Of a DNA stretch of 64,000 nt, positions 888 to 53,869 are shown piece after piece. Location of the stretch: NCBI GenBank assembly GCA_963422465.1, contig OY730173.1, forward strand, positions 3,844,001 through 3,908,000. The letters are read 5' to 3'. Within the stretch, counting starts at the first letter, position 1. Each line of letters opens with the position of its first letter. This DNA comes from Lichina pygmaea. Lineage: Eukaryota; Ascomycota; Lichinomycetes; Lichinales; Lichinaceae. Position numbers and translations under genes: made by a program. The notes below the pieces were generated by a model that saw only the letters and a program-made list of their open reading frames with translations, ran no database searches and was not told the origin of the DNA.

Positions 888-1395
888 ACATCCCACCTCT
901 AACAAGCAAGAAAGAAGTGGACAATTACCTGGAAAGACTGGACAAAACTCTTCAAGAAATTCTAAACAAAACAACTTAACCTTGCAAAGAGTCCAGGTAT
1001 GCAGTACTATGGTGGAACCAGGAAATCAAAGAAACTATCCAGGAGGAGAGAAAAGTATGAAGAAAAGTACCCAGGGCCAAGAGGAAACCACCAGACTGGA
1101 GAAGATAACCAAAAAGAAAAAGAGTCTGATCAGACAAGCTAAAAGAAAAGTATTCAGAACACATCTCCAACAGCTAGCAGGAACCCAGGGCTACTGGAGA
1201 ATTGCCAAATAGGGAAAAGAAAAAGCTGGCAAAGTTCCTGACCTACCAATAGTCCCAGAACTTATAGGACAACAAGGACAGCTGGCAAAGTTTTTTGAAG
1301 AAAAAACAGAAGCTTTCAGAACTTAATTCTTCCCTCTTCCTCTACAGCCAGAGGCAGAAGAACAGGATCTGCCAGAAGAAATCCAGGAATAGCAA
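888..1395 (+). mobile_element. LINE A, fragment 1 (ORF2 linker between endonuclease and RT)
   Basis: Plus-strand translation gives a decayed version of the ORF2 segment seen intact in LINE B: IPPLTSKKEVDNYLERLDKT..., WWNQEIKETIQEE..., and a lysine-rich stretch. Several stops and frameshifts are present. The copy is cut at 1395 by gypsy element A and resumes at 7711, where the reading continues QEVSEE...KKKKPFSAPG. The first recognisable LINE bases abut the pogo remnant, so the 5' part (ORF1, endonuclease) is missing. Confidence 0.8.
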
Positions 1396-1474
1396 TGTTA
1401 AGGCCCAGGCCGGAACGGCTGAGCCGACCGAAGCGAGTGTACAGAGGTACACGGAACAATGTTCACCCGACCCG

Positions 1475-1567
1475 GTGGACAAGGTGGACGATGTGTAACC
1501 AGCTCGTCCAGCTTGTCCACGGTGGACGAGGTGGACAACGTGTAACCAGCTTGTCCAGCTCGTCCAC
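1475..1567. repeat. Two tandem inverted-repeat units in U3 of the gypsy A LTR
   Basis: Unit 1 pairs an arm at 1475-1491 with 1504-1520. Unit 2 pairs 1522-1538 with 1551-1567. Each arm is 17 nt made of two GTGGAC boxes, with one mismatch per stem and a 12-nt loop ending TGTAACCAGC. Arm order is swapped between the units, yet each pairs with its own partner. They lie about 50-140 bp upstream of the TATA box. Possible roles are transcription factor sites or a structured element; neither is shown. Confidence 0.8.
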
Positions 1568-1615
1568 GCAGAAAGCTGATACCCCTCGGGAGGACCCCCC
1601 CCCCTCAGGCTCCTG

Positions 1616-1623
1616 TATATAAG
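1616..1623 (+). promoter_or_regulatory. TATA box of the gypsy A 5' LTR
   Basis: TATATAAG lies inside the LTR downstream of a C-rich run and is repeated at 7540-7547 in the 3' LTR. It is the likely core promoter for the genomic RNA; the start site is inferred to lie 25-35 bp downstream. Confidence 0.6.
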
Positions 1624-1824
1624 AACCCAGATAGCCGGAGAGAATAGCTCTCCAGGCTGAACGCACATTACAAGCGACAATAGCAAGAGAGTTACCCCAC
1701 TTGCTATTCATCTATTGAGTCCCTGCCCTCCTCAGTCGAAGACAGGACCACCCACATTCTGTGTGAACGTGGACTGGCTGTTAACAGTTTCAGCCTCTAA
1801 CACATAGGACACCGGCTCAATACG

Positions 1825-3369
1825 ATGGCAGATCCACGCAGCCCTACCCCTTCGCAGGCAGGCCAAGCTCGGGCTGCGCCTCAGGCGCAAGCCCAGGAAC
1901 CACCTGTCCCTACCACCCTCACCTTACCTCCAAAGCCGTTGAAGGTGGGTATGCCGAAGAGGTACGATGGATCACAAGGGGGATTGGAATTATTCTTCTC
2001 TCAGCTTGAGCTTTACTACAGATTCAACACCGCACAATTCCCTACGGAACAGGAGAAGGTGCTGTTCGCAGCTTCCTACCTGGACGGACCGATGTTTGCC
2101 TGGTTCAATGTCTACCTACGAGACTTCCTCGACAACAAGGAAGATCCCTCTAGCATGGAGACCACAACACGGCAGATCATTGGGAGATTCTCTACCTTCA
2201 AGACCCAGATGAAGAAGACCTTCGGGGTTATTGATGAAGAACAAGATGCGGAACGAAAGCTCCAAGCACTACGGCAGACAGGGTCAGCATCAGACTTTGC
2301 GGCGAAGTTCCAACAGTTGTCAGTGAGGACACAATGGGGAGACAGTGCCTTGACGGCACTATTCTACCAAGCTCTCAAGGAACAAGTCAAGGATGACATC
2401 GCACGAGGAGACTGACCCACCGACCTCAAGGATATGATCGACACAGTGGTACACATCAACGACCGACAGTTCGAACAAGAACTTGAGAAGCGAGGCAAGC
2501 ATGCAAGGCCATAGGGCAAAAAGACAGCGCCAGCACAAGACAAGTACGGCTTGACACCCATGGAGATTGATGCAACAACACCACAGGCAACAAAGAAGAA
2601 AGAAACACGGAAGTGTTACAATTGCCAGAAGGTAGGACACCTCGCAGCCAACTGCCAAAGCAAGAAGAAGAAGGAAGGCAAGGGTAAGCAGTTGAATGCC
2701 ACTGGTGCCTGGAAAGGCAAGGGCATTCAGGAGCCACCGAGGGCTCCCAGAGGCACGCTACCCATGAACCGGTCAGAAGCAACACTCCTCGGGCAGGAGG
2801 ACAATCTCAGACAGCACATCGAAAGACTGGAGAACGATCTGCAGAGGTCACTGGAGGACCTGCACGCAACCCAAGACCAGATCGATAAGGTTCATTGGGA
2901 GGATGACCTGATCTCCGAATTTGACACAACAGACTACGAGATTGATATAACCGGCATGCCACCAGTTCCCGAGACACCACTACTCCGACGACAGGATGCG
3001 ACCTTGTCGGAGGACGGTGAAGCAAGAGTGACGCGATGGGTGGACGACACCATCAGCATCTCACAGCCCCGAGACATCGCAGTGCAAGTGGACCTTCACC
3101 AGGCTACGACACCAGCCTGCGGACATCCTTATTGGAAAGGATGTGAGGACCACCACTGCAAGGAACATCTCCTAGAGAAAAGGAGAAGGCACTACTTCCC
3201 TGGCCCAGAATACCACAAGAAAGCCTGGAGCATCAAGCACCAGCTAAGCCAGCAAGGGAAAGAACACGATGATTGTGGAGAAGACGCATGGGAGCTATGC
3301 TTCACCGAAAAATGCGAAAGACACGCGGCAGAACACCAGGCTCAGGGCCTTGGTTGTTCAAAAAACTAG
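1825..3369 (+). pseudogene. gypsy A gag (capsid-nucleocapsid), two in-frame stops
   Basis: Starts MADPRSPTPSQAGQ and runs in one frame to 3369, with stops at 2413-2415 (TGA) and about 2512-2514 (TAG). The first 196 codons hold the retrotransposon gag capsid core (RYDGSQGGLELFFSQLELYY, FAAKFQQLSVRTQWGD). A zinc knuckle follows, CYNCQKVGHLAANC (C-x2-C-x4-H-x4-C), after a lysine-rich stretch. Downstream is a second Cys/His-rich module (CGHPYWKGCEDHHCKEH). Gag forms the particle that packages element RNA. The two stops replace a likely CGA and CAG, that is C-to-T changes, so intact source copies probably encoded one continuous Gag of about 515 residues. The C-terminal part overlaps the start of pol in another frame. 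Confidence 0.9.
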
Positions 3370-6300
3370 CAGTGCTCTTCAAATCCGGAGTCGGAAGAGC
3401 AGGCAAGACAACACTCCGGAGAGAAGGGGTCAAGCAGAGCCTTGACGCGACAGCCTGCAGTCTGCATTTTCGCATCAAGATGAGAGTCAACAGGCATCTG
3501 ACAAACACCATGATCGACTCTGGAGCTACTGGCAACTTCATGTCAGAAAGTTTTGCCAGGAAGCACAAGATCCCGACTCAGGAAAAGAGGAATCCATACC
3601 AACTAACAGTAGTGGACGGGACACCACTCTCCAACAACCAAGGACGAGTGACGAAGGAGACCAAGAACCTACGACTGTGTGTCGACGGTACGACAATCGG
3701 ATCAGAAGAATTCAACTTAGTCCAGATACCACATGAAGTTATATTGGGTCTTCCGTGGTTGGAAAGTCAAAACCCAAGGATCGACTGGAAAAGAAGGCAC
3801 CTAGTCTTTCCGAAGAGGAGTCTGGCAACTCGAGCAGAGCCAGAGAAAGTGAGAATCAAAGAGATCTCATATGCAGGGTGGAAGAAGCACCACCGGCGAG
3901 GGCGAGCCTATGTGGCTTGGATGAAGCTCCGAAACCATCAACTTTGCACCACGCATGACGCCGTGGGCGAGACTCAGGCACCGCAGCTGCCAAGTGAGTA
4001 TAAAGACTACCAGGAGATGTTTGGTGAGGAAGCAGTCGCGACGCTACCAGAACACCAAGAGTGGGATCACGAAATTCTGCTGGAAGACAGAAAGAAACCT
4101 ACACACAGCCCTATTTACACTCTATCAGCAAAGGAGCTTGAGGCCTTAAGAGATTACCTGGACGAGAACCTAGCGAAAGGGTTCATAAGACCTTCAACAT
4201 CACCGGCCGGATACCTGATATTGTTTGTGCCAAAGAAGGACAGCAAATTACGACTGTGTGTTGACTACCGGCAGCTTAATGCGATCACAATTAAGAATCG
4301 CTACCCACTACCATTAATATCGGAAATCCAGGACTGAATCCAAGGAGCCAAGTGGTTTACCAAGTTCAACATCCGAGGCGCTTTCAACCTGGTTAGGATG
4401 AAAGATGGTGAAGAATGGAAGACAGTCTTTCGTACGAGGTACGGGCATTACGAGTATACTGTTATGCCATTCGGCCTTACGAATACACCGGCGATGTTCC
4501 AATCGCTCATTAACGCCATCCTCCGACAATACCTGGATATATTTGTTACCGCTTATATCGACGATGTCTTGGTTTACACCAATGGAACCCTGGAGGAGCA
4601 CAGACAGCATGTCAAGAAGATCCTACATACGCTCCAAAAAGCAGGAATGAGGTTACGCTTTGATAAGAGCGTCTTCCACGTGAAAGAAGTGGAATATTTG
4701 GGATTGATCCTGACGACAGAAGGAATCTGTATGGACGATACAAAGACAGCAGCAGTACAAGACTGGCCAACACCCAAAAACCTCAAAGAAGTCTAATCCT
4801 TTCTGGGATTTGCGAACTTCTACCGACAATTCATCAAGGAGTACTCAAGGACAGCAGCACCCTTGACTGAACTAACAAAGAAGGAAGAAACCTTCACATG
4901 GGGGAACAGCCAAGAGAGAGTGTTCCAGGAGCTGAAAGAGAAGTTCACCTCCGCACCCATACTGGCATTATTTGATCCTGGACAGTGGATCATCATGGAG
5001 ACGGATGCCTCGGACCAAGCACTTGGATCTTGCTTGTGTCAACCAGACGCCGAAAAACCGCCTACACTCTGTCGCATACTGATCAAGAAAGTTCTCTGGC
5101 CCAGAACTCAGGTACGATGTTCACGACAAGGAGTTGTTAGCGATTGTCGATGTATTCCAGGAGTGGAGACCTTACCTGGAAGAAGCAAAGTACACAGTGG
5201 ACGTGTACTCAGACCACAAGAATTTGGCTTACTTCACAACGACAAAGAAGCTAAACAGACGACAAGTCCGATGGGCAGAGCTTTTAGCTTCATACAACTT
5301 CCAGATCTTCTATCGAAAAGAATCAGAAAACACACGAGCGGACGCGCTTAGCAGGCGGCCTGATATGACGACAGACAACACGACAGAAGAGCGCCCAATC
5401 CTTGTGACAAAAGGACAAACTCTGGTCTATGCTCAACCTCAGTTAGCGAAAACTGAAGAAATGGGTGCACTCCTGACCCTAGGCCACAACATTGCGGCCA
5501 CGAACAAGGAAGAAGTGCCAGAGAGTGCACAAGAGGACATGATTTGACAACATCACGATAGACCTCTACACGGACATCCTGGGCAAGACAAGACCCTGGA
5601 AAAGATCTGGAGACGTTACCACTTCAACGGAATGAAGTGGAAAGTGATGGAATTTATTCGCAACTGCGAAGAGTGTGCGAAAAACAAACTGTCACGCCAC
5701 AAACCCTATGGAGAGAGTCAACAAATAGACCTCCCAGAAGCGGCTTGGGATACCATCACAATGGATTTTGTGGTGAAGCTGCCGAGGTCAGAGGACCCAG
5801 TAACAAAGGTGAAATATGACAGTATCTTGGTGGTTGTTGACAAACTCACCAAATACGCTCACCTGATCCTGTGGCGAGAGACAGGAACAGCGAGTGAACT
5901 CGCCAATGTCCTGCTCAAAGAATTGGTTAGCCAGCGAGGGCTACCCACGAAGATTATCTCGGATCAAGACAAACTCTTCACCTCGAAATTCTGGAACACG
6001 TGGACAAAACAGCTAGGGATAGACACGAGGATGTCTACTGCCTACCATCCACAAACAGACAGACAAACTGAGAGAACAAACCAAACGATGGAACAGTACC
6101 TACGCCACTACGTCAACCACTGACAGGACGATTGGGTAGAACTACTACCAATAGCTCAGTTTGCGTACAACGATCAGCAACACAGCGTGACAGGCATGAC
6201 ACTGTTCTTTGCGAACTACGGCAGAAACCCCCGCTGGGAAGCGATGGCGGCTGAAAGTGGCACTTCAACAAACATTGAAAAACTCACTGCTATGCATGAG

Positions 6301-6882
6301 GAAATGAAGACTGCAATTGAATCCGCACAAAAGACAACAAGCCACCACCTAAACAGCAAAAGGTTGAAGGGACCAACCCTGGAGAGGGGGGATAAGGTCT
6401 ATTTGTCAACAAAAAACCTGCGCTCGAAGCGACCGAGCAAAAAGCTGGATCATGTACGAATCGGACTGTTTGAGATTGAGAAGCGCACTGGAGAAGTCAA
6501 CTACCGACTAAGACTGCCAAAAAAGGCACGGATACACCGAGTATTCCATGTCTCGCTGCTTGAGCCAGCACCCAGCAACGCAGCAATCAAAACAGAATAG
6601 CACTTCGAGGATGACAAAGAAGAGTACGATGTTGAAAGGATCCTAGACAGCTGGAGAAGCGGACGGAAAATCGAATACCTGGTCAAGTGGTTAGGGTACG
6701 ACAATAAGGAGAACTCGTGGGAACCCACTGAGAACTTCAGCCCTGCGACGAACAAGAAACTGCGGAGTTTTCACCAACAAAACCCGCAGAAGCCAGGATC
6801 GATGGAGACAAAGGCCCGAGAGAAGCCAAAGCCTCCGAAGAGAAGAAGTCCTCCAAAGGCGGCGGGGACTCCACACACGTAG
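3273..6882 (+). pseudogene. gypsy A pol: protease, RT, RNase H, integrase, chromodomain; broken
   Basis: Begins overlapping the end of gag. Protease shows [10 protein letters not shown] (Asp-Ser-Gly). RT shows [28 protein letters not shown] and the catalytic YIDDVLVYT. RNase H follows (METDASDQALGS, YSDHKNLAYF, TRADALSRRPD). Integrase has a zinc-binding segment ending CEECAKNK and a core with TMDFVVKLP, IISDQDKLFTSKFW and YHPQTDRQTERTNQ. The C-terminus is a chromodomain (EYDVERILDS, YLVKWLGYD, SWEPTENF), expected to target chromatin. Defects are stops at 4335, 4794, about 5081, 5545, 6121 and 6598 and one frameshift near 5055 in an A-run. Everything else aligns as a single polyprotein ending with TAG at 6880. 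Confidence 0.92.
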
Positions 6883-7267
6883 CCTCCTGCTCGAGATCCT
6901 CCTGATCCTTGATCGCAGCAAGCTCACGCTTGATGGCCTCACCCTCCTTCTTGGACAACACACCCAACTGACGACAGAGACGAAGTTTGCGAGGAAGGAG
7001 AACAGACTCCTGCTCCTCGATCTCCTTCAGTTGAGCCTCGAGCTGAGTGCGCTCAAGCTCCATCTTCTCCCACTCTGACTCCGCGAGATGGAGATCGCAA
7101 CGGCAACCCTTCTCAAGGCACCGACCGCAAAATGTGGACTCTGAACTGACGACACACTTGGCACAGTCACGACGACATGCGCTGCATGAAACTTTGGATA
7201 CCTTGCCCATCTTGCCAACACGAGAACCGAGGACTCCACGACAATTAACACAAGATGTCCGGGTCAT
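6737..7267 (-). CDS. Antisense Cys-rich/coiled-coil ORF in gypsy A, function unknown
   Basis: An uninterrupted 176-codon frame on the strand opposite to gag-pol, between the end of pol and the 3' LTR; its last 50 codons overlap the chromodomain end antisense. The N-terminal 60 residues carry paired cysteines (SCVNC, SCSACRRDCAKC, FCGRCLEKGCRC), a zinc-binding look. Residues about 65-130 are rich in Glu, Lys, Leu and Gln in heptad-like spacing (SEWEKMELERTQLEAQ) and should form a coiled coil. The tail is Ser/Pro/Leu-rich. While sense gag-pol has about eight stops, this frame has none. Recognisable decayed versions lie in two other copies at 60170-60640 and 61031-61200. I do not recognise a named family; chance openness opposite pol is the alternative. 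Confidence 0.5.
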   Translation of the reverse strand: MTRTSCVNCRGVLGSRVGKMGKVSKVSCSACRRDCAKCVVSSESTFCGRCLEKGCRCDLHLAESEWEKMELERTQLEAQLKEIEEQESVLLPRKLRLCRQLGVLSKKEGEAIKRELAAIKDQEDLEQEATCVESPPPLEDFFSSEALASLGPLSPSILASAGFVGENSAVSCSSQG

Positions 7268-7304
7268 GGTAAGAGAAGCGAGAGGATCTGGGGACAGAAC
7301 CTTT

Positions 7305-7318
7305 GGAGGGAGGGGATA
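7305..7318 (+). other. Polypurine tract of gypsy A
   Basis: GGAGGGAGGGGATA directly precedes the 3' LTR at 7320. This is the expected position for the primer of plus-strand DNA synthesis. The same tract is kept before the LTRs at 60683 and 61224. Confidence 0.75.
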
Positions 7319-7319
7319 G

Positions 7320-7710
7320 TGTTAAGGCCCAGGCCAGAATGGCTGAGCCGACTGAAGCGAGTGTACAGAGGTACACAGAACAATGTTCACCTGACCCGGT
7401 GGACAAGGTGGATGATGTGTAACCAGCTCGTCCAGCTTGTCCACGGTGGACGAGGTGGATGATGTGTAACCAGCTTGTCCAGCTCGTCCACGCAGAAAGC
7501 TGATACCCCTCGGGAGGACCCCCCCCCCTCAGGCTTCTGTATATAAGAACCCAGATAGCCGGAGAGAATAGCTCTCCAGGCTGAACGCACATTACGAGCG
7601 ACAATAGCAAGAGAGTTACCCCACTTGCTATTCATCTATTGAGTCCCTGCCCTCCTCGGTCGAAGACAGGACCACCCACATTCTGTGTGAACGTGGACTG
7701 GCTGTTAACA
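7320..7710 (+). repeat. 3' LTR of gypsy A
   Basis: Same 391-bp length as the 5' LTR. Differences include CCGG/CCAG, ACGG/ATGG, CCGA/CTGA and ACAACG/ATGATG; the last is most simply explained by loss of two CpGs from an ancestral ACGACG. It is followed by the target duplication AGCAA and then by LINE A. Confidence 0.95.
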
Positions 7711-8423
7711 AGCAACTACCCCAAGAAGTTTCTGAGGAATAAGTACAAGAGGTTCTAAAGAAGAAAAAACCTTTTTCAGCACCAGGCCAACACACTCTGC
7801 CAAATGGATTTCTAAGAGCATTGGGAAACCCCTTCAATAAAAGAATTGCCAAGAATCTGGAGACTTGCTGGAAACTGGCATACTTCCCAGACAGGTACAA
7901 ATCAGCCAAGACAATCTGCTTAAGGAAATCTGGCAAGAGATCTTACTGTCAAGTAAAAGCATAGTGTTCTATAGCTTTTCTGAACACAATTGGGAAGCTA
8001 ATAGAAGCTATCACAGCTGCAAGACTAAGTGAACTAGCTGAGAAAGAAAACCTCTTACAAGAAATCCACATAGGTTTCAGAAAAGAAAGATCAACAGAAT
8101 CAGCACTTTTTCTTCTGATCTTCCAGGTAGAAAAGATCTGGAAAGAAGGAATAGTTGCCAGTCTTCTCTTTCTGGACATCTCTGGAGCCTATAACAGAGT
8201 CTTATCAGAAGTTCTCAGAAAGATCCTGATTAAGAAAAAGATTTCTAAGTGGTTTGTATCCTAGATTTTTTCTTTCACTACTGCATGCACTACCTCCCTT
8301 GTGTTTGATGACTCAGAGTCTTCCCAGTTCTCTATACATTGTGGAGTCCTTCAAGGATCACCTCTTTCTCCTATTCTATTTCTTTTCTATATCTCAGAAC
8401 TTCACAACACAGTACATACCCCT
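7711..8423 (+). mobile_element. LINE A, fragment 2 (RT N-terminal half)
   Basis: Plus-strand reading KKKKPFSAPGQHTLPNGF, WKLAYFPDRYKSAKTICLRK, GFRKERSTESALFLL, LLFLDISGAYNRV and HCGVLQGSPLSPILFLFYIS is the fingers/palm of a non-LTR reverse transcriptase, with several stops. It ends ELHNTVHTP at 8423, where gypsy B enters, and the very next RT residues (EKEVSALSFADDTN) appear at 13747. Confidence 0.9.
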
Positions 8424-8694
8424 TGTGACGAGGCAATAGCAGAGCAGAACTCAAGCCTAACTGATTTGGTAACCTTGACCTGACTTGGCTTGAGACTTGA
8501 GACTTGGATTGATGTACAAGGCGAAAGACGAGGAAGGAAAAGAGAAAAGAAGAGAAGAAGCTGGGGGAGCAGGAGAAGTTCTTATAGGCAGGGGATCAGG
8601 CAACAGCGGAGCAAACAGGCAAACAGTGCAGATGGGACTTCCCAGCAAGGTGCGTGGCTTGTGCCAGATATGCAACTGGGCCAGAACCGTGACA
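8424..8694 (-). repeat. LTR of gypsy B copy 1 (3' LTR in element orientation)
   Basis: A 271-bp direct repeat of 13471-13741. On the minus strand it carries CCTATAAGAAC, a TATA-like promoter box at about 8582-8592. The pol stop codon (TAA, 8695-8697) touches the LTR border, and the purine tract AAGGAGGGGGG lies within the last pol codons. Confidence 0.95.
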
Positions 8695-11600
8695 TTACCC
8701 CCCTCCTTCACATGGTGAACTCCTGTGAGCCTCAGGCCGCTCGTGGGTGTAGTTCCGTGGCTGTGGTTTCCTTGGGTATTTCTCATGGAAGTTGTAGATG
8801 GCGTCTTTGGTGTTGTCAAGATGCTCAATAGGCTCTTCAGTGGTATCTTCGATTGGCCATCCAGACTATTTGACCAGGTACTTGAACTTCTGTTGAGATG
8901 TTGCTGGCTTGGAGTCAAGGATTTCTTCAACCTGGAACTCTTTATCTGTGTCTTGACCAATGACAGGGCCAGGGTGTTCATTTGATTGGCCAGGGATAGG
9001 ATTAGCAGGTGTCAGACGTAGAAGGGAAACATGAAAGACAGGGTGGATCTTGAGAGTGTGTGGAAGCTCCAGATGGCAGGCACAGCTTCCGACTGTCTTC
9101 AACACCTTGAATGGTCCAATCCACTTGTTGTCAAGCTTTTTGCATAGGCGGCGTGTCCTGATGTTCTTGGTATTCAGCCAAACAAGATCTCCAGTTTGAT
9201 AGGATGGTGACGGGACTTGATGCAAATTGGCGGTGTGAGCTTGAGCTTCCTGGGATAGTCGGAGTTCAGCTTGCAACTGTTCCAGAATCTGCGTCATTTC
9301 TCCAGAGATTTCCATAGCATCTTGGTTGCAGGCTTCACCCATGGGTGTGATGCTGAGCTGTGGATGGAACCCTTTGTTGGCAAAGAACAGTGACATGCCA
9401 GAGGAATCAGACTGGGAGTTGTTCTGCGTGAACTCTGCCAGAGGAAGCCATTGGACCCAGTCATCTTGGAGATAGTTGACATAGGATCTCAGGTAGCGTT
9501 CAAGCTCCTGATTCTCTTGTTCTGTCTGACCATCTGTCTCTGGGTGGTGTCCTGAGGATAGTCGTAGCATGACGTCGAGATAGGCACAGAGTGCTTTCCA
9601 GAATAAGCTGACAAACTGACCTCCTCTGTCTGAGACAATACTCCTGGGCAAGCCATGGGTACGGACAACAAACTGGATGAACATCCAGACAAGATGCGAG
9701 GTTGTCATCTCAGCACATGGCACAAAGTGGTGTTCTTTGGTGAGACAGTCAGTGATGACCCAGATGTGCTTGGCACCAGGGAAGCAGGCATCTCTTGACT
9801 TGGGCAAGTCAGTAATGAAATCCATAGCCAGATCCTGCCAACATTGCTGAGGCATGGGAAGAGACAGCAGCTCTCCTTGGCGATCACGGGCAGGCTTTGC
9901 TCGAGAGCAGACATGACAATTCCTGATGTACTGCCGTATGATGTTCACCATCTTTGGCCAATAGTACCAACAAGACAGAAGATTGTGGGTCTTGGCAATC
10001 CCAGTGTGGCCAGCCATTGCTTGGTCATGGGCTTCTTGGAACAGGCGTAGGCGTAGCTCATCGTTCTCAGGGATCCAGAGTCAGTTCTTGTAGAAGAGAC
10101 AGTCATTTTCCAAGCTGCAGTCTGAGAGAGACACTTCTCGACTGTGCCTGACACTATCCCTTAGCATCTGTGACACTGTTACCACTGGATCACCTTCAGC
10201 AAGGTTGTTATAGGCAGCTTGGATAACGTCTGAAAGAGGTGTAGCATCAGGTTCAGTGTCAACTGGTACAGCTTCTGAACGTCTCAGGATCTGGATAGGC
10301 TTGACTTGAACCTCTGAATGTGCAAGATTCTTGGGCTTGAGGATGACTTGCTCCATGAAGTCTTGACAGAGATCACTGTCTGACAGGAGGTCTTGGGAAT
10401 GTTGAGTGAGGGCGTCAGCCTTGCACTGACTGCCTGGACAGTAGCTGATCTTGAAATTGAAGTGTGACAAGAACTCGCTCCAACGGGCTTGACAGCGGGA
10501 AAGGTGTTTTGACATCATAAAGTACTCCAAGTTCTTGTGATCAGAGATCACTTTGACAGGTTCTGGAGATCCTTCAAGCTCTGCTCACCATTCTTCAAAG
10601 GCACAGACAATTGCCAGCAACTCTTTGTTGTAGATCTTGTAGTTGCATTCTGCTGGCAGGTGGCGGCGTGACAAGAAGGCAACAGGGCGTAGAACTCCTT
10701 CATGGTCTGGCTGTGACAGGACAGCACCAGAGATGTAGTCAGAAGTGTCAGTCTCAACAACACACTCCTTCTCCGGATCAAAGTGCTGCAGGATGGGTGC
10801 AGTGCTGAACGCCTTCTTGATACTTTCAAACAAGCGCTGCTCTGGGGTTTCCCACTTGAAGGCAACATTCTTCTTGGTCAGAGCTGTGAGTGGGGATGCA
10901 AGCTTGGCAAAGTCTTTGATGAACCAGCGGTAGAAGTTTGCAAAGGCAATGAAGCTCTGCACTTCCTTGAGACTGGCAGGAGGCTTCCACTCCTTGATGG
11001 TGTCAGTCTTGGCTGGGTCCATACTCACAGATCCAGGTCAGCCGTCTTCAGTGGCAGACTAAATGATGAGGCCAAGGTACTTGACTTGATGGACTTCAAA
11101 GTCACACTTGGAGATGTCAACTTGCAGGCTTGCATCTCGTAGTCGACTGAGAACAAGCTTGACATGCTTCCGGTGTTCCTTGAGTGTCTGACTGTAGATA
11201 AGGATGTCATCCACATAGGCAGTGCCAAAGACGTCAAGGATGTCAGGTCCCAAAACATCATTGATGTAGTTCTGGAACGTGCTTGGAGTATTGGCAAGAC
11301 CAAAGGGCATGACAAGGTATTCGTAGAGGCCTGAGCGTGTGCAGAACACAGTCTTCCATTCTTCACCTTCCTTCATCCGGATACAGTTGAAGGCACCAAC
11401 AATGTCAAGCTTGGTGTACCACACAGCTTTGCAAAGCTGGTCCAACATCTCCTGGATCAGTGGTAGGGGGTAACAGTTCTTGATGGTGATAGTGTTGAGT
11501 GCTCTGTAGTCTACACAGAAATACAATCCACCTCCTGGCTTCTTGACAAAGAGGACTGGTGCAGCAGCAGGTGATGAAGATGCTTGAATGAAGCCCTTGT

Positions 11601-12384
11601 TCAGGTTCTCTGTCAGGTATTTCTTGAGAACTTCAAGTTCTTCTCTGCTTATGCTGTACAGAGGTCCAGAGGGTGCCTGGGTTCCTGGTTCCATCTTGAT
11701 CTTGTGGTCAACTCCTGGGTGTAGAGGAGGAAGCTTGTCAGCGTCATCCTTGCTGAAGACATCCAGGAACTTGTGGTACTGAGCAGGGAGAAGTGTGGCA
11801 GAGTCCACACACTTCTTTGGCTTCAACGCCTGCTCAATGTCTCTCAGAGAAACACTGAACACCTGGTGATCTGGCTTGGCAGCAAGGAGAGAAAATGCGG
11901 CAGCATTGATGGGGATTGGCGTGGCAGAAAGAGGCTTGGGATCCTGAGGCTTTCCAGCAGACGTCTTGGCTTCAAGATCCAAAGAGATTGGATAGCCATT
12001 GTTTGACTTGAGGCATGCGGATCGGCAGTGATCTGACTTGAACATGATTGAGGTGTTTGCCCAATCAATGTGTGGCCCGTGCTTCTGGAGCCATGGCATC
12101 CTCAGAATCACATCATAGTGAAGACCAGGAGACACAAAGAGAGAGACTTCTTCCTGGTGCACACCATGTGCTGTGGTCATGATTGTCTTGGTGAGATGCG
12201 TGGTTTGTGACGTCTTGCCATCGAACAATCGCAATGTGCGTGGGTAGGGGAGAGGTTCTTGGTGAAGAGATTGCGCAAAGGAAGCACCAATGCAGCCAAA
12301 TGCTGAACAGCCAGAGTCAATAAGAGCATTGCACTTGAATTTCCCATCTAGGATACAAGGAAGAAACAAGCACTTGCTGTCCAA
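8695..12384 (-). pseudogene. gypsy B pol: protease, RT, RNase H, integrase, chromodomain; broken
   Basis: Minus-strand frames give protease (ALIDSGCSAFG), RT (FCVDYRALNTITIKN, MPFGLANTPSTFQ, AYVDDILIYS), RNase H (VVETDTSDYISGAVLS, VISDHKNLEYFM), an HHCC integrase finger (HTGIAKTHN...CHVCSRAKP), the integrase core (MDFITDLPKS, IVSDRGGQFVSLFW, GHHPETDGQTEQEN) and a chromodomain (FQVEEILDSKPA, KYLVK then stop then SGWPIEDTTEEP). Breaks lie near 11029-11058, near 10552-10584, at about 10018-10080, and at 8866-8868 where a TGG of the chromodomain became a stop. The final TAA abuts the LTR. Upstream, one TAG separates this frame from the linker after gag. Confidence 0.92.
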
Positions 12385-12455
12385 TTGCTAGTCTGGAGAC
12401 AGATAGCCAACATGGAGATCCTTTTCATGTCCTTGAGTGCGACGATGACCAAGGA

Positions 12456-13412
12456 CTACTTGTTTTCCGACTCTGGAGTAGTCTCAACAGTGGCAGACTT
12501 GGTGGTGGTCGTGGTGGTGGCAACAACAGGCATGCTTTTCACTGGACAGAAGGTTGAGACGTGACCTTGGTTCCCACAGTAGAAGCAGAGGCCTTTGCTT
12601 CGGCAACATTCTCGCTCTTCTGGCGTCAGCTTAGAGTGGCTGAGATCCATAGTAGGACTTGGTGGCTGTGGCGTGAAGACTGGCTTGATGAACCCTGGAC
12701 GCAGAACTGAAGCTCCTGACCGTGGAACTGAGGCTTGGGTGGGAGGTGCTTGACGTGGACGGCGAGAGTTGGCAGAAGTGGCACGCAACTGGTTGTCCTG
12801 CAGCTGGCATTCCTCAACAAGCTTCTGATAGCTGATGTCCTTGAGGTTGATGCTGACAAGCTGCTTGGCAAGCTCTTCAGAGACAGCGCATCGAAGATGG
12901 CACTTCAAGACCTTGTCGTTGAAGCCTGTGCGTGGAGTATACTGATTGAACTCTGTGAAGAACTCAGCAAAGGAACAGTTGGCCTGACGTAAGGTGATGA
13001 GCTTTCTCTGAGCTAGGAACTCTGGGTCTGGGTCGGAGAAGGTGTTCCGGAGATCTTGGATGATGTCGTGCCAGTCAATGTACTGGCCAGCCGTGATCTT
13101 AGCTGAGATGTAGGACTGCGCAGTGCCAGTCGTGCGTGAAAAGACGTATGTAATCCGTGATGTTTCTGTGGGGTACCGGTCAGCGTTGAGCGTCATCTTG
13201 AGTGACAGTGACGTGATGAAGCTCTCAAGCTTCTCATGCGTGATTTCCGTGTTTCCGCCATCGCCACTGAAGATCTCTGGGTCAGCAGTGCGTTCGGACT
13301 TGGACTTGGGAGTAGTGTTAGTAGCTTGAATTCGCATGAACTCTGCAAACATGTTGTGAAGGAACTTGTCATTTCCAGCAACTAGCATGGCTTGGTCTGG
13401 TTGTTGAGACAT
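12456..13412 (-). CDS. gypsy B gag, intact frame
   Basis: A 318-residue uninterrupted frame, MSQQPDQAMLVAGND..., containing a capsid core (DPEIFSGDGGNTEITHEKLE, FAEFFTEFNQYTPRTGFND) and one zinc knuckle CFYCGNQGHVSTFC (C-x2-C-x4-H-x4-C) near residue 270. It starts 59 bases inside the element from the 5' LTR. The tail is Thr/Lys-rich. Gag would assemble the particle and bind element RNA. It is the only intact major frame of this copy, so it might still act in trans. Confidence 0.88.
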   Translation of the reverse strand: MSQQPDQAMLVAGNDKFLHNMFAEFMRIQATNTTPKSKSERTADPEIFSGDGGNTEITHEKLESFITSLSLKMTLNADRYPTETSRITYVFSRTTGTAQSYISAKITAGQYIDWHDIIQDLRNTFSDPDPEFLAQRKLITLRQANCSFAEFFTEFNQYTPRTGFNDKVLKCHLRCAVSEELAKQLVSINLKDISYQKLVEECQLQDNQLRATSANSRRPRQAPPTQASVPRSGASVLRPGFIKPVFTPQPPSPTMDLSHSKLTPEERECCRSKGLCFYCGNQGHVSTFCPVKSMPVVATTTTTTKSATVETTPESENK

Positions 13413-13470
13413 GACAAGGACGTGAACATGGCTTGGTGAAGTGTGTTATGGTTGGGTAGGTCTTTCGCAG

Positions 13471-13741
13471 TGTGACAAGGCAATAGCAGAGCAGAACTCA
13501 AGCCTAACTGATTTGGTAACCTTGACCTGACTTGGCTTGAGACTTGAGACTTGGATTGATGTACAAGGTGAAAGACGAGGAAGGAAAAGAGAAAAGAAGA
13601 GAAGAAGCTGGGGGAGCAGGAGAAGTTCTTATAGGCAGGGGATCAGGCAACGGCGGAGCAAACAGGCAAACAGTGCAGATGGGACTTCCCGGCAAGGTGC
13701 GTGGCTTGTGCCAGATATGCAACTGGGCCAGAACCGTGACA
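13471..13741 (-). repeat. LTR of gypsy B copy 1 (5' LTR in element orientation)
   Basis: Matches 8424-8694 except at four CpG sites: CGAGG/CAAGG, GCGAAAG/GTGAAAG, AACAGCGG/AACGGCGG and CCCAGC/CCCGGC. It ends next to the second CCCCT duplication at 13742. Confidence 0.95.
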
Positions 13742-15190
13742 CCCCTGAGAAAGAAGTTTCTGCACTTAGTTTTGCAGATGACACTAATCTTCTAGCATTC
13801 TCCTCTTCCCTGAAAAGCAACCTTCTCAAGTTGAAGTCTACACTCTCCAAATGTCAGGACTGGGTAAGAAAACATGGAATGAAGTTTACACCTGAAAAGT
13901 ATAAACTTCTCTATTTCTCTAGAAAAAGAATAGACAGTCTTCAGCTTAGTCTAAGACTTGGAGAAGTGGTACTTCAACCAAGAGAAGAAGTGCGTATTTT
14001 GGGACTTTACTTTGACTCAAAACTTGCCTGGAAAAAACACCAAAAAATCATGGCACAGAAAGCTTCTAAATATTCTCAGCTTTATCCAGAACAACCTACT
14101 CCACTTGGGGACTACCAGTCTTAACAGCACGTCATGTCTACACTGCTATACTAAGATCTTTTCTTAGCTATGTAGTAGGAGTCTGGTTTAATCCTCAAAA
14201 GAAACCTTCCAATATTATTTCACTATCTACTTTCCAAAACAAATATCTAAGAACTATAGGAGGTGTCTTTAAAGCCACTACTATTTTCCTACTTGAATCA
14301 GAACTATTTCTACTCTCTCTAGACTTATACTTCAAGCTGAGAACAGCATGTTTTCTTTTATCTTTCTACTCTTCAAATACACTACCCAACTCCTCTCCTA
14401 CACTTCTCTAAAAACTACACAGCCAAATTTCCTTCTATATCTCTTCTCTCAGAACTGCACCAAAGCCTCTGACAACTGTTTCTCTAAACTGGAGAACAGT
14501 CTGGCTGGAACAACTGACCACTAGCCAAGACTTTTCAAAGGAGAGTCTAAAGGAAGTTTTCCACAAAGAATAGGAAGCCAGATAGCAGGTAAGCAGAGGA
14601 AAGTGTTGTTCTATTTGGGACATGTTCACCAGAAGCCCAGAGAAGAAAAACCTCAATATCTTCAAAGATTTGAGAAAGGCCAAGTCTAGTCTATTCCTTC
14701 AAATTCTGTCAGCAAGAATAGGACTGGCCAGTTTTCTTTTCAGAGCAAATGTCCCAGATTTTAACTCCCCTCTATGCACCTGTGGTTTTGGAGAAGAAAC
14801 AGCTCAACACATCATCTTTTTCTGCAACAAATTTTCAAACCAAAGACAACAAGCTCAATTCCCTCTACAAGATTTCCCATCTATCTTATTCTCATCCAAG
14901 TTATGTCCTAAACTTCTTTTCTAGTTTATGTCTTTGAAAAGACTTGACCAGTCTAATCTAGCCCACTCACTCTCTCTCTGAGCTTACCAAGTCAACTATT
15001 TGTTTAAACAAATAGCTACATGTACAAATCTCCTTACCTACAGTATATTTCCCAAGATTTTCTCTAGTCTCTCCCAAGCTCTAGTTTTTATTCCTTCAAA
15101 GGTTTTCTGGAGAAACAAACATGTACTTAGAAGTTCTGCATGGCTCTACAGCTAAATCAGTGTAAGAATAAAATAAAATAAAATAAAATA
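13742..15190 (+). mobile_element. LINE A, fragment 3 (RT palm to 3' tail)
   Basis: Resumes the RT with the catalytic FADDTNLLAFSSSLKS (13770-13815), then GMKFTPEKYKLLYFSRK, the thumb, and the C-terminal zinc-like motif CTCGFGEETAQHIIFFC near 14780-14830. Stops and shifts interrupt it. The 3' UTR ends with the family signature ...CTAAATCAGTGTAAGAAT and a tail of AAAAT repeats (15170-15190). No matching target duplication could be found because the 5' side abuts the pogo remnant. Confidence 0.9.
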
Positions 15191-15229: not shown

Positions 15230-18042
15230 GAAAGAGCCGGGAACATCTGGAGCTAGTCCACACCAACATCAGAGGATCCATCACCCCAGCTAGTCCAGGC
15301 AGATCAAGGTTCTGCATCATGTTCACAGATGACTATTCACAGACCTCATGGATCTACTTATTGAAGACTAAGGATGAAGTCTTGGTCAAGCTTCAAGAGT
15401 TTGTCTGGTGGATTGAGAAGTAGACTGGCCTGGAGGTCAAGAGGCTACATTCTGACAATAGTGGAGAATACAACAATAGGAAGACCAATCAATAGTTCAA
15501 GAGTACTGGAACTCAGTGGAAGTCTACTGTGGCATACACACCTGAGCAGAATAGAGTTAGCAAACACCTGAATAGGACTCTGATGAATAGAGTCAGAGTG
15601 ATCCTCCATGACAGCCAGTTGGACAAGAAGCTCTGGTCTGAGATTGCCAACATGGTGATCTACATCAAGAACTGGACATCTACCCAAGGACTAGCCCGAG
15701 GATCTACACCTCACAAGGCCTGGTTTGGAGAAGAGGAGTGGCCTGATCTGAGCTATCTACAGCTTCTAGGATGCAATGCCTATGTCCACATGCCTAAGGA
15801 GAAAAGAAAGAAGCTGGACAATCACTCAATGGATTGCAGGCTGGTTGGCTATAACATTTCTAACATCGATAGACTTTGGGATCCAAACAAGAAGATCATT
15901 GTACAGGCTAGAGATGTGGTCTTTGACAAGAACAGGCAAGGCACAGGTGATACCTCAGTGCAGCCAGAGGAGGATAAGGAGGATGTTGTGATGTTGCCAG
16001 TGATGTTGCCCCAAGGCATCAGCAGCACCAATCCAATCAAAGAGTATCTGATCCTAGCTGAAGAGATTAGCAGTGATCATCAAGAGCGACTGATGATGGA
16101 GCGACTGACTGTGGAGCCTGTTGCTGCTCCTCCAGGATGCCCTCACTGTGTCGACTGTGCTCCTTCAATGATTTCTAGCTGTCGTGACCGTGCAAATGTC
16201 GAGGACTCAGCTGTTGCTGATGCTCCTGCTCCTGCTCCAAATCCCGGCAATTCCGACTGTCCAAATCCCATCAATTCCGACCGTGCAAATCGGCAGGGCT
16301 CTGCAGCTGCAGCCCCGGCTCCAAATCACCATTCCACTCGCCGTTCCGATCAATCTGTTGATGCAGCAGTTGCTGCTCCGGCTCCTTGTTGTTCCGATCA
16401 AATCAACAAAGGACGACCACCTGCCAGAGGATTATTGGCTATCTCTGAGAGGGGACGGAGCCTAGGACTTACCAGGAAGCCAAAAAGGATCTGAATTGGA
16501 TGAAATGGAACGAAGGAATGGAACGAGAGATTGCCTCTCATAAGGAGAATAACACCTGGGATCTAGTTCAGCTGCCACCTGATCGGAAAGCCCTACCTGG
16601 AAGATGGGTTTATTGTCTGAAGCCAAGAGACGGAGAAGAGCCAGTGTTCAAGGCACGCTGGGTAGCCAAAGGCTACATGCAATGTCCAGGGCTGGATTTC
16701 GAGGACATGTTTGTGTCTGTTGTGAAGATAGTGTCTCTGAGAACTCTTTTTGCTATAGCTGCTGTTGAAGATCAAGAGATAGAGCAAATGGATGTCGTGA
16801 CCACTTTCCTCCATGGTGATTTGGCAGAAGACGTGTATGTTGTGCAGCCAGAAGGCTTCCAGAGCAACATCCCTGGCATGGTATGCCATCTCAACAAGTC
16901 ACTTTACAGGCTGAAGCAATCCCCGAGAGCCTGGTTCAGAATGTTAGCTAGCTTCCTGAATGAGCAAGGCTATTCCCAGGACTCAGCGGAGTACGATCAG
17001 AATCTGTACGCGACAGACGTGGATCATGCAGTCTACACCAACGGGTGAGTCACAATCATGATCTACGTGGACGACATGCTGTTTTTTGGTTCAAACACTG
17101 ACAAGATCATCCAGCCGAAGAGGCATTTCAGCCAACGTTTCAAGATGAAGGATCTAGGACCATGCAAGAAGTTCCTAGGAATCCAGGTCACCCGTGACAG
17201 AGAAAGACAGACGTTGCGCCTGGATCAGACTGAGTATCTCCGCAAAGTGCTAGAGGACCACCACATGGACGACAGCAAGCCTGTTGCAACTCCGATGGAA
17301 CAAGGCCTGCACCTTCCACCTCCAGATCCTGGACTGCCTGATCAGCTAGCCAAGCTGTACCAATCAGCAATTGGATCTCTGATGTACGTGATGCTCAACA
17401 CCCGCCCAGATCTAGCCTACACCCTCTCTAGGCTGAGCCAGTACTTGACGAACCCAACCGACATGCATTGGAGGGCGCTCAAGAGAGTCTTGCACTATGT
17501 TAAGGGGACACTGCACTACAGCATCACTTACGGAGGACTCAGCACCGGAGATCTACACGGCTACACTGATTCAGATTGGGCAGGCAACAAGGAGACAAGG
17601 AGATCTACCAGAGGCTATGTTTTTCAGCTGGGCAACGGGCCAATCAGCTGGAAGTCAAAGCTGCAGCCAACTGTCGCTCTCTCGTCCTGTGAAGCCGAGT
17701 ACATGGCAGCCACACAAGCTACTAAAGAAGTAGTGTGGCTACGAAGACTTCTTGCTCACCTGGGACAGCTAAACTCAGATCCGACTGAGGACGTTGCTTT
17801 ATTGTGACAATCAGGGAGCTATCCAAGTGTCGCAAAACCCGATGCACCACGAACGGATGAAGCACATCGACATTCAGTATCACTGTGTTCGGGAGAAGGC
17901 TGAGGACAACGAGATCTTGCTAACGTATGTTCCTACAGCAGACATGATGGCAGACGGCCTAACGAAGCCTTTGGGGCCGATCAAATTCAGGAGGTTTGTC
18001 CAACAGCTGGGGCTTGGTGGTATTGTGGCAGGTCAAGATTGA
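15230..18042 (+). pseudogene. copia pol: integrase, RT, RNase H; frameshifted
   Basis: Integrase core: MFTDDYSQTSWIYLLKTKDE, RLHSDNSGEYNN, AYTPEQNRVSKHLNRTLMNR, with two early stops. A long Ala/Pro/Ser-rich linker follows (16100-16480). RT: WDLVQLPPDRKALPGRWVY, KARWVAKGYMQ, IEQMDVVTTFLHGDL, SLYRLKQSPRAWF and the catalytic MIYVDDMLFFG at 17058. RNase H: YTDSDWAGNKETRRSTRGY, SSCEAEYMA, and YCDNQGAIQVSQNPMHHERMK at 17795. Breaks: a frame change near 16490, a stop (TGA) at 17046-17048, and another frame change near 17800. Domains otherwise read through, so this is a recently broken gene. Confidence 0.9.
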
Positions 18043-25389: not shown

Positions 25390-25916
25390 TACTTGTTCTC
25401 TCCCTCCAGCTTGATGATCTACTGGATGGCGTGGGGGATCCACTTAATCCAACACTGGATCTCACTTTGTGGGAGCTTATCGCAGCACTTGAGCCATGCT
25501 TCTTCTGCTGGGCCTTGATGTTTCAGAGAACTACTCTTTGTTGTCACCCACTTCATCCATGGCCAGCATAGCTTAATGGTGTTCAGATCTGGTGAGTTGC
25601 CTGGCCAGTCCAAGCACTCAAGGCTATACTCTCCAAAAAGAGCAAGGTTATACAGGGAAACATGAGGTGTTGCTCTGTCCTCTTGCACAATTGTCTTGGG
25701 TTGATCCTTCTGGCACTCCTGAGTGAAGGGTAGGAGCTTCTGGTATAGGATGATCTTGCTGTATTGATATCAATCAATTCCTTCTTTGCCTTGTTGTACA
25801 ACCTTACTTTTTGGGCTGTGAAGCACTATTGGGATATCTGTCCTGCAGGCTTTCATCAGAGATTCAACTGTGACATCTGCACATCAGCAAAAACAGAATT
25901 TACATCTGTGGCATAG
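25390..25916 (-). pseudogene. Tc1/mariner-type transposase, C-terminal remnant
   Basis: The minus strand gives QEDRATPHVSLYNLALF, then CLDWPGNSPDLNTIKLCWPW and KWIPHAIQ-stop-IIKLEG. The WPGNSPDLNxIxxxW block with the catalytic Asp is the signature of Tc1/mariner DDE transposases, and the preceding QEDxAxxH holds another catalytic Asp. The N-terminal half is degraded or absent and at least one stop interrupts the tail. The gag-only LTR element abuts it at 25917. Confidence 0.8.
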
Positions 25917-28274: not shown

Positions 28275-28548
28275 TGTGACGAGGCAATGGCAGAGCAGAA
28301 CTCGAGCCTAACTGATCCAGTAACCTTGTCCTGACTTGGCTTGAGACTTGAGACTTGGATTGATGTACAAGACGAAAGACAAGGAAGGAAAAGAGAAAAG
28401 AAGAAGAGAAGAAGCTGGGGGAGCAGGAGAAGTTCTTATAGGCAGGGGATCAGGCAACGGCGGAGCAAACAGGCAAACAGTGCAGATGGGACTTCCCGGC
28501 AAGGTGCGTGACTTGTGCCAGATATGCAACTGGGCCAGAACCGTGACA
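28275..28548 (-). repeat. Solo LTR of the gypsy B family
   Basis: 274 bp, TGTGACGAGG...CCGTGACA, matching the gypsy B LTRs and flanked by a perfect 5-bp duplication ACCAG. A solo LTR arises by recombination between the two LTRs of a full element. It sits between WWNQ and EIKDKIKKK of LINE J. Confidence 0.95.
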
Positions 28549-31917: not shown

Positions 31918-31930
31918 AGCTCCAGAACAT

Positions 31931-32337
31931 AGCAGAGATCCAGAAGTACTGGAAGATTGCCAGATAGGGAAAAGAATAAGCTGGCAAGCCACCAGAACTT
32001 CCTATTGTTCCAGAGCTCACAAAGCATAATAGAGGAATTACTACAACTTTTGCTGAGAAAGCAAAAGTCTTTAAGACCCAGTTCTTCCCTCTTTCTCTGC
32101 AACCAGAACCAGAACCTCAAGAACAGTCAGCCAACTACCAACAACACCAGCTATCCCAGGAAATCTCCAAAGAAGAAGTTCAAGAAATTCTGAAAAGAAA
32201 GAAACCTTACACAGCCCCTGGAAAAAACACTCTACCTAATAGGTTTCTGAAGGTACTTGGAGACTTCTTTAATAACAAGATAGCCAAAGTGCTGGAGGCC
32301 TGCTGGAAGCTGGGTTATCTCCCAATAAGATACAAAC
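31931..32337 (+). mobile_element. LINE J, fragment 3
   Basis: Resumes LINE J after LINE B: AEIQKYWKIA, PPELPIVPELTKHNRG, TQFFPLSLQPEPEPQEQ, QEISKEEVQEILKRKKPYTAPGK and WKLGYLPIRYK, with several stops. It is cut off before the RT palm, where the 5' region of LINE C begins. Confidence 0.85.
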
Positions 32338-32845
32338 CTACCTCAACTCTTCCCAGAACCACGCTGTTCAAGGACCATCACCTTTGGTAAAGACAGCAAT
32401 TTGTCATATGTTCTGGAAAACAGCCGACATCCTGTCCCGACCCACCCAAACCTTAAGGTGAAAACCCATCACCTTTGAGAATCACACCTGATTTTCAAAA
32501 GTTGTGGTTTTGGAATCCACGATCTGTTTCTTCAACAACCAGCAATCCAGCCACAACCAGAGAGAGAGAGTCTCAGGATAAGAGGAATGGTTAGAGTCTG
32601 ACTGACTCTGGAGCTAGCAGAGTCCTTGACTCAAGGAAAGTCTAGACAGGGAGTCTGGTCCCTAGTCTAGGCAAATACTCCTAGCTTTACCCAGAGCTTA
32701 GTTGGAGTAAGCTGCCCAGGAAAGTCTAGTCTTGGGGTCTGGTCCCAGGACTAGATTATTACTGCTGGGAAACCAGGTGACTCCTCTCTCTCTGGCACTA
32801 CTTCACAGACTGGAAACAGTTGACCTGTGCCAAGCAAGCTCCACT
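32338..32845 (+). other. 5' UTR of LINE C with repeated sub-units
   Basis: CCATCACCTTTG occurs twice (about 32379 and 32467). A longer block starting GGAAAGTCTAG and containing GTCTGGTCCC occurs twice, near 32635 and 32717, with an 82-bp period. Such repeats often hold internal LINE promoters. The exact 5' end of the element is not certain. Confidence 0.6.
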
Positions 32846-37200: not shown

Positions 37201-37482
37201 ATTGGCCTGGCAAGTTTTCTATTCAGAGCTGGAGTTCCAGACTTTCCTACCCCTTTATGTGTCTGTGGTCAAGCAGAAGAGACAGTGAAACATATCACCT
37301 CTTCATGCTCTCTTTATTCAAGTCAAAGATAGCAAGCTCCTTTTAATTCTCAAGATTTCACTTCTATTATTTCAAACCCAGAGCTTCTACAGAAGTTTCT
37401 ATACTGGTTCATGTCTTTGAAAAGACTGAACCAGTTTAATCTAGCTTTCAAACTCCACTATTCACACTCTAATATCTAGAAG
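34237..37482 (+). pseudogene. LINE C ORF2: endonuclease, reverse transcriptase, zinc motif; two nonsense codons
   Basis: Starts at ATG 34237, overlapping the ORF1 stop. Endonuclease: LLQYNVQKSQ, IIALQELWKNPH (catalytic Glu), LLTDSNLHHPDWS, AIDLSFISSS and GSDHKPI. RT: KKKPFTAGGKDKLPNGFLKA, GFRKGRSTESALFLL, SLDISGAYDRV, CGVPQGSPLSPILFLFYIS, GFADDTNLLAFG (catalytic Asp pair). C-terminus: RIGLASFLFRAGVPDF and CVCGQAEETVKHITSSC. Stops are TGA at 35356-35358 (from TGG in KWGK) and TAG at 37330-37332 (from a Gln codon); the family frame otherwise continues to TAG 37480. The protein would nick DNA and prime reverse transcription at the target. Confidence 0.9.
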
Positions 37483-37650
37483 TCTTCTTTCTACCAGTCA
37501 CTACAAGATTTCCTTTTGCTACATCCTCTAGTCACCCCCAGTCCTCAGTTTTTATTCCTCTAAAGGTTTTCTGAAGAAAATCACTCTTAGCTAGAAGATC
37601 TGCATGGCTGAAAAGCTACTATCAGTGTAAGAATCAAATAAAAAAAAAAC

Positions 37651-52627: not shown

Positions 52628-52849
52628 TCACAATATGTGTGGGTAGGGGAGAGGTTCTTGGTGAAGAGATTGCGCAAAGTAAGCACCAATGCAGCCAAAT
52701 ACTGAACAGCCAGAGTCAATAAGAGTATTGCACTTGAATTTCCCATCTAGGATACAAGGAAGAAACAAGCACTTGCTGTCCAATTGCTGGTCTGGAGACA
52801 GATAGCCAACATGGAGATCCTTTTCATGTCCTTGGGTGTGACGATGACC

Positions 52850-53811: not shown

Positions 53812-53869
53812 GACAAGGACGTGAACGTGGCTTGGTGAAGTGTGTTATGGTTGGGTTGGTCTTTCGTAG

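Follow-up and report, generated by a model that had tools for sequence, protein, structure and literature searches.

In the ascomycete Lichina pygmaea, probably the fungal partner of a marine lichen, CG dinucleotides disappear from copies of two Gypsy retrotransposon families at a rate hundreds of times that of transversions. The analysis covers one stretch of 64,000 nucleotides, called the window here (contig OY730173.1, or C5, positions 3,844,001-3,908,000), together with copies of its transposable elements (TEs) drawn from the whole genome of 32.47 Mb in 8 contigs. The elements in question are two long terminal repeat (LTR) families, Gypsy A and Gypsy B, and a family of long interspersed nuclear elements (LINEs). 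The best reading of the data, to which a probability of roughly 0.6 is assigned, is methylation-coupled, CpG-directed mutation of TEs, in the presence of which a LINE family already purged of CpG persists.

CpG transitions in the Gypsy elements

The first-pass annotation of the window had counted 12 differences between the LTRs of Gypsy A copy 1, all of them transitions and 11 explained by CpG loss, and a recount agrees: nine are direct CG/TG or CG/CA differences, two form one TG/CA pair, which is a single CG lost both ways, one is at CpC, and there are no gaps. The chance that 11 of 12 would fall within CpG is 6e-10, or 3e-7 over C/G positions only. These plus-strand LTRs of 391 bp (1396-1786 and 7320-7710), flanked by the target-site duplication (TSD) AGCAA at 1391-1395 and 7711-7715, have lost 3 and 8 CpGs, respectively, relative to the mate. 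Likewise, each of the 4 differences between the LTRs of Gypsy B copy 1 (8424-8694 and 13471-13741) is at CpG, as had been reported (chance 1e-5, or 2e-4 over C/G positions only). The CpG loss described for the partial Gypsy A copy 2 (58595-61030, plus strand) proves complete, with 0 CpG vs 117 in 5224-7710 of copy 1, and 10 CG/TA double losses are found there. Host exons had been called CpG-rich, and the five host open reading frames (ORFs) have CpG observed/expected ratios (o/e) of 0.99-1.21; together with the transitions in the TEs, this is the concentration of C-to-T change in repeats that is expected of repeat-induced point mutation (RIP).

For the genome-wide spectrum, the best 40 of 558 candidates from the Gypsy A LTR search and the best 40 of 551 from the Gypsy B search were scored, and mates were matched up by spacing, a choice that biases the sample toward copies resembling those of the window. 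The 24 pairs obtained in this way were added to the 2 window pairs to give 26, of which 24 have an exact 5-bp TSD; one pair with a single TSD mismatch (L036/L037) and one with no matching TSD (L056/L057) were retained in every 26-pair figure. The latter, a Gypsy B pair at full-element spacing, is likely a recombinant between copies. The 26 pairs differ by 203 substitutions, comprising 148 single CpG transitions, 7 TG/CA doubles (14 transitions), 20 CpA and 17 CpC changes and 4 transversions, and by 4 gap columns. With 162 of the 203 substitutions at CpG and 20 at CpA, the proposal that CpG rather than CpA is the main target is upheld. Per site and pair, the rate is 0.243 at CpG (162/666), 0.017 at CpA, where change is about 15 times rarer, and 0.014 at CpC; none of 1322 CpT sites changed, a shortfall relative to CpA and CpC with p=2e-7. 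Site for site, CpG change outpaces transversion about 520-fold, with an interval of 204-1919 derived from the 4 transversions alone. Non-CpG hot spots also occur, at columns 32 and 210 of the Gypsy B LTRs (L048-L071) and column 285 of the Gypsy A LTRs (L024-L047), each in 4-5 pairs and in one mate only.

Internal segments of 1.2 kb were compared among 11 Gypsy A and 12 Gypsy B copies, and carry 208 CpG C>T changes with 0 transversions in Gypsy A and 76 with 4 transversions in Gypsy B; CpA and T>C counts in these segments, raised artificially by CpG doubles, were kept out of the rates. The CpG rate is 0.146 in the CpG-dense Gypsy A vs 0.176 in the CpG-poorer Gypsy B. At least one stop interrupts the best frame in 10/11 Gypsy A copies and 10/11 Gypsy B copies. 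CpG events are divided between the strands, 78 on the top and 82 on the bottom, and CpG-preferring transitions on both strands are what CpG methylation and deamination would leave, in the manner of methylation induced premeiotically (MIP). Adjacent CpG events within a copy lie on the same strand in 54 cases and on opposite strands in 67; no strand runs were found within copies, where strand uniformity does not exceed that of shuffles (p=0.49).

RIP indices were read against cut-offs of 0.89 for TpA/ApT and 1.03 for (CpA+TpG)/(ApC+GpT), as quoted in an excerpt of PMC3828140. High TpA/ApT had been named in the first-pass annotation as evidence against CpG-type decay, and the outcome is divided: the index is below 0.89 in 14/14 bins of the younger Gypsy elements (copies 1 and 2 of Gypsy B and copy 1 of Gypsy A), but 16/20 LINE bins reach or exceed that value, as do 2/2 bins of the aged Gypsy A copy 2 and 1/8 host bins. 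In 36/36 TE bins the substrate index (CpA+TpG)/(ApC+GpT) exceeds 1.03, which speaks against CpA RIP, and TpA o/e is 0.28-0.76 in TE bins, with no TpA excess. Neither the LTR-pair spectrum nor the substrate index has CpA as the preferred target, and together they exclude a main role for canonical CpA RIP, despite the raised product index in LINE bins.

The CpG-poor LINE family

LINE bodies are nearly CpG-free, as first described, with CpG o/e of 0.00-0.09 in 20 LINE-dominated 1-kb bins and 0 CpG in 36001-36060. Endonuclease (PF14529) and reverse transcriptase (PF00078) domains are both present, which places the elements among the LINEs, and their ORFs are long though nearly devoid of CpG. The first-pass annotation had treated these elements as copies decaying by CpG loss. 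That view was not sustained, and they are instead an active family already purged of silent CpGs.

Genome-wide copies were sought with the subfamily A reverse transcriptase ORF at 55403-57574 (minus strand; 723 aa; 6 CpG in 2166 bp), and the best 62 of 1,796 candidates were taken, a ranking that favours intact copies. Among these 62 ORF2 matches, 41 are stop-free over 722 matched codons, 28 of these being listed with a 1083-aa frame, and 43 of the 62 belong to subfamily B. Twelve subfamily B copies are 99.4-100% identical over 2166 bp, and their 5-7 CpGs are all in arginine CGN codons. In two LINE copies examined, CpGs at codon boundaries number 0-1 vs about 32 expected, and NCG accounts for 0-1 of 189 codons; host ORFs have no CpG deficit at codon boundaries or in NCG. 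Subfamilies A and B are separated by a synonymous divergence (dS) of about 0.39, with a nonsynonymous to synonymous ratio (dN/dS) of 0.10-0.12 (four pairs) vs 0.79-0.97 within a subfamily (three pairs), so the family has existed CpG-poor under purifying selection, with near-neutral decay of its copies once inserted. In the 98.3%-identical pair 34272-37649 / 55233-58610, only 2 of 57 differing sites are CpG, so the CpG loss predates those insertions. In addition, TG/CA double differences number 0-2 in each of eight LINE pairs vs 19 and 22 in two Gypsy pairs, ruling out post-insertion decay as the source of LINE CpG loss.

The transversion ages of LINE subfamily B and the Gypsy LTRs are alike (6/25,944 vs 4/17,212, p=1.0), and at this equal age CpG loss is five times lower in the LINE: 5/264 CpG cytosines changed in 12 long copies and 20 short pieces, vs 160/1620 in the LTRs (p=1.7e-6), a comparison in which LINE events are few and which is imperfectly matched, LINE changes being scored against the majority base and LTR changes against the mate. 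The 12 long copies have 2 CpG changes vs 13.7 predicted from LTR context rates, and CpA and CpC changes taken together are lower as well (14/5748 vs 37/4914, p=2e-4). LINE A has 5/56 CpG changes, at a transversion rate about 8 times higher. CpG o/e for the active families is 0.00-0.09 in the LINE, about 0.2-0.3 in Gypsy B and about 0.7 in Gypsy A. It is suggested tentatively, and at odds well short of even, that the LINE, stripped of nearly all CpGs whose loss is silent, may be a poor target of the host CpG mutator and may outlast CpG-bearing Gypsy families; the CpG content of an active TE family would then be a residence clock, and the mutator an enzyme that selects its strand by the base following CpG. 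Under the same tentative proposal, the few CpGs kept by the LINE, mostly in arginine codons, would leave it neither efficiently CpG-methylated nor efficiently CpG-mutated.

Methylation genes, mechanism and alternatives

The first-pass annotation had pointed to homologues of fungal DNA methyltransferases as a check, and these were found: a PF00145 profile search of the genome gave three matches, on C4, C6 and C7, of DIM-2, DNMT5 and RID type, respectively, and SRA-domain matches lie at two further places. The C4 gene is a 1317-aa open frame with a DNA methylase domain and a sub-threshold BAH match; its best match (2e-172) is 9baq, annotated as a DNA (cytosine-5-)-methyltransferase, which we take to be the Neurospora DIM-2 structure (compare PMC11315935). 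The C-terminal tail of this ORF contains an acidic, serine-rich segment in three nearly identical copies. On C7, the RID-type protein bears a PPCQPFS motif, and a short GT-AG stretch before its last part is a plausible intron; its named relatives are mostly lichen fungi or their kin, most of the matches being listed without a name. The C6 gene joins a DNA methylase domain to SNF2, and its best match over residues 5-1325 (9e-263) is 7r76, deposited as Rad8 and presumably Cryptococcus Dnmt5. A RID-type methyltransferase gene, expected of RIP, is thus predicted from sequence, as is the maintenance-type CpG machinery (DNMT5-type, SRA domain) expected of a MIP-like process, and the joint presence of DIM-2-, RID- and DNMT5-type genes and SRA matches makes CpG methylation plausible.

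In methylation-coupled mutation, TEs would be marked by cytosine methylation strongly preferring CpG, with 5-methylcytosine (5mC) as the presumed substrate. The DIM-2-type enzyme, the RID-type enzyme or both would set the mark, and the DNMT5-type enzyme, together with SRA-domain partners, would maintain it. A marked C would turn to T far faster than other changes arise, the deamination perhaps being enzyme-assisted or favoured by poor T:G repair, and each Gypsy insertion would soon be stripped of its CpGs. The LINE family, always resident, would have shed its silent CpGs and kept mostly those in arginine codons, where loss alters the protein; purged in this way, it would still multiply, now less affected. 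This account builds on direct observations, namely the CpG-specific C-to-T pattern with its size and context, the abundance of CpG in host ORFs that lie next to TEs poor in it, and the machinery genes themselves. The secondary changes at CpA and CpC, with CpT spared, would fit a context-graded mark or context-graded deamination.

Several results weigh against this account. Single dyads favour one strand, to a degree reached by 0/5,000 simulated draws, and mutated Cs vary with 3' context (CGT 83/506, CGA 49/470, CGG 24/460, CGC 4/184). In dyads whose CG is followed by T/A on one strand and by G/C on the other, the T/A side is mutated 67:13 in the LTRs, and 75:15 across two internal-segment comparisons, for a pooled 142/170 in favour of following GT or GA. 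When each LTR site is counted once the preference is 17:3 (p=0.003), with no individual base pairing significant, and within a dyad a preference for 3' T/A is indistinguishable from avoidance of 5' A. The context-free choice between dyad Cs expected of plain decay is thus not found, and context preference within a palindromic CpG is not predicted by a symmetric mark followed by context-free deamination. Mates of equal age are, moreover, unevenly mutated (simulation p=0.001, chi-square p=0.006; p=0.0009 in the 24 exact-TSD pairs only), as if from episodes, to which gene conversion could contribute. Passive 5mC decay in mammals runs tens-fold over transversions, a range that the roughly 500-fold ratio seen here exceeds, straining passive decay; together, rate and dyad rule favour a step that is active or poorly repaired. 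The CpG rate, not being lower in CpG-poorer Gypsy B, implies that low density alone may not explain the LINEs, and low density as the sole cause of their weak mutation is not supported between the two Gypsy families. Finally, an excerpt of PMC7862722 describes 11 Ascomycota with RID and Dim-2, some also with DNMT5, whose methylation has no CG preference, so the gene set alone does not predict CpG methylation; according to the same excerpt, two ascomycetes with high CG methylation have DNMT1 or DNMT5 in addition to RID and Dim-2.

A CpG-targeted form of RIP, in which a RID-type enzyme would sense duplicated DNA in the sexual cycle and mutate CpG in bursts, could draw on the very high CpG rate, the unevenly mutated mates, the context preference within dyads, and the RID-type gene with its plausible short intron. 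It is nevertheless judged unlikely. The strand uniformity within copies that it predicts is missing, single-strand bursts having been found in neither the neighbouring-event nor the shuffle tests, and LINE subfamily B, which should be the prime homology target, is five times less mutated at equal transversion age. The lack of strand runs and, indirectly, the weak mutation of a highly repeated LINE disfavour a homology trigger. Gene conversion with other, older copies as the main source of LTR differences is improbable. It would account for L056/L057, the likely recombinant, and for two non-CpG columns, 231 of Gypsy A and 14 of Gypsy B, where some pairs have mates that agree, on either allele, and other pairs have mates that differ, and converted tracts could underlie mate unevenness; but exact TSDs flank 24/26 pairs, the three non-CpG variants at which mates disagree most often (columns 210 and 32 of Gypsy B and 285 of Gypsy A) are never common to both mates, and the dyad context rule is found again in internal segments.

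Canonical CpA-type RIP as in Neurospora, which leaves strand-asymmetric runs not seen in Lichina, is more improbable still, although a minor or old share is compatible with the data: a RID-type gene exists, the LTR pairs contain 20 CpA changes, TpA/ApT is at or above its cut-off in 16/20 LINE bins and 2/2 bins of the aged Gypsy A copy 2, and that copy has its CG/TA double losses. The rarity of CpA change per site, the low TpA/ApT of the younger Gypsy bins and the substrate index throughout the TE bins stand opposed to it. Editing of cDNA by a cytidine deaminase before integration, from which C-to-T clusters limited to retroelements would be expected, has very little to commend it, since such editing acts mainly on one cDNA strand and the strands here are equal; the zero CpG of the aged Gypsy A copy 2 further suggests loss after integration. 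Methylation-coupled, CpG-directed mutation remains the best reading.

Neighbouring features and related systems

In the window, Gypsy A copy 1 has a zinc-knuckle ORF (2515-3369) and a protease ORF (3273-4337) on the plus strand (PF00098, PF08284; CpG o/e 0.56-0.72). Gypsy B copy 1 (8424-13741, coding strand minus, TSD CCCCT) is nested in a LINE, and copy 2 (48819-54222, minus strand) is CpG-poorer, with 50 internal CpGs vs 106 in copy 1; its second LTR (53870-54222) has a 79-bp internal duplication that is missing in the mate. An apparently solo Gypsy B LTR lies at 28275-28548 (plus strand). Gypsy A copy 1 and Gypsy B copy 1 both appear to have inserted into a single minus-strand LINE copy at 1003-15188, whose matches to 42030-48535 point to this nesting. 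Other LINE features are a reverse transcriptase ORF at 29646-32126 (minus strand; RVT_1; 826 aa; 3 CpG in 825 codons), a possible ORF1 at 32711-33865 (plus strand; 384 aa; zero CpG), assigned by position only and without a Pfam match, a subfamily A ORF2 at 34228-37332 (plus strand), with endonuclease (34228-35358) and reverse transcriptase (35359-37332) parts and in-frame stops, and CpG-poor ORFs on the minus strand at 43268-45166 (reverse transcriptase, 632 aa) and 62589-63908 (439 aa, 2 CpG).

Copia-like remains at 15496-17807 (SH3_retrovirus match at 15496-16494) have CpG o/e of 0.34-0.50, between LINE and Gypsy A. The host gene ERB1, which served as a control, occupies 39189-41688 on the minus strand (CpG o/e 1.17 and 0.99); the protein of the matched part, 39189-40844, is 94% identical to a Lichina confinis protein over 94% of the query, and 40870-41688 is probably the first part of the gene. 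CpG loss extending from elements into adjoining DNA was looked for within the window: sequence next to LINE ends and lacking a LINE match has CpG o/e of 0.41-0.70, and two stretches outside the TEs assigned here, 25501-25913 and 54481-54744, have zero CpG. Elsewhere in the genome, C4:2500001-2510000 (L019) has CpG o/e of 0.02-0.16 in 10/10 1-kb bins and may be centromeric or filled with TEs; in none of the other 19 stretches of 10 kb that were sampled does more than one bin fall below 0.3.

Fungal TEs with CpG-signature mutation or methylation are already known (PMC4352252, PMC4165359, PMC5381629), and the likenesses drawn here follow excerpts of the papers cited. MIP-like Tuber melanosporum shares with Lichina its ascomycete affiliation, RID- and DIM-2-type genes, a CpG preference and the targeting of TEs and not genes; unlike Tuber, Lichina has a genome of 32 Mb and a DNMT5-type gene too, its LINE stretches exceed a TpA/ApT cut-off for which the Tuber excerpt reports no RIP signal, and it is known from mutations alone, whereas Tuber methylation was measured by bisulfite sequencing (PMC4165359). 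Microbotryum and other basidiomycetes have in common with it CpG-restricted TE transitions and the persistence of active elements (PMC5381629, PMC4352252). The Microbotryum motif (TpCpG) is, however, set by a 5' T and that of Lichina by the 3' base (CGT and CGA over CGG and CGC) or by 5' A avoidance, and the expanding Microbotryum clade began with an element free of target-site mutations, whereas the live Lichina LINE has lost its silent targets (PMC5381629). In basidiomycetes, as excerpted, no RID or Dim-2 was found and CpG signatures are linked to Masc2-like genes (PMC4352252). Zymoseptoria tritici shares the trio of Dim2, Dnmt5 and Rid and C-to-T change in TE regions, but its methylated sites are mostly CG and its Dim2-dependent mutations at CA, whereas the Lichina mutations are at CG (PMC8016269). 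Neurospora RIP shares C-to-T change in repeats and a RID-type gene, but targets CpA, which is not the main pattern in Lichina (PMC12543289, PMC4352252). A partial literature search found no paper on CpG-signature TE mutation in Lichina or Lichinomycetes.

Surveys of RIP in ascomycetes mostly use indices of CpA loss and TpA gain, which are mixed here while LTR pairs clearly show a CpG target. The genome offers a fungus with RID, DIM-2 and DNMT5 in which the mutation target is CpG and a rule within the CpG dyad can be measured, and in which a TE family appears to persist by exhausting its targets. Such a genome allows one to test whether the mutation of fungal TEs is driven by methylation or by repeat recognition, and whether elements can escape it.

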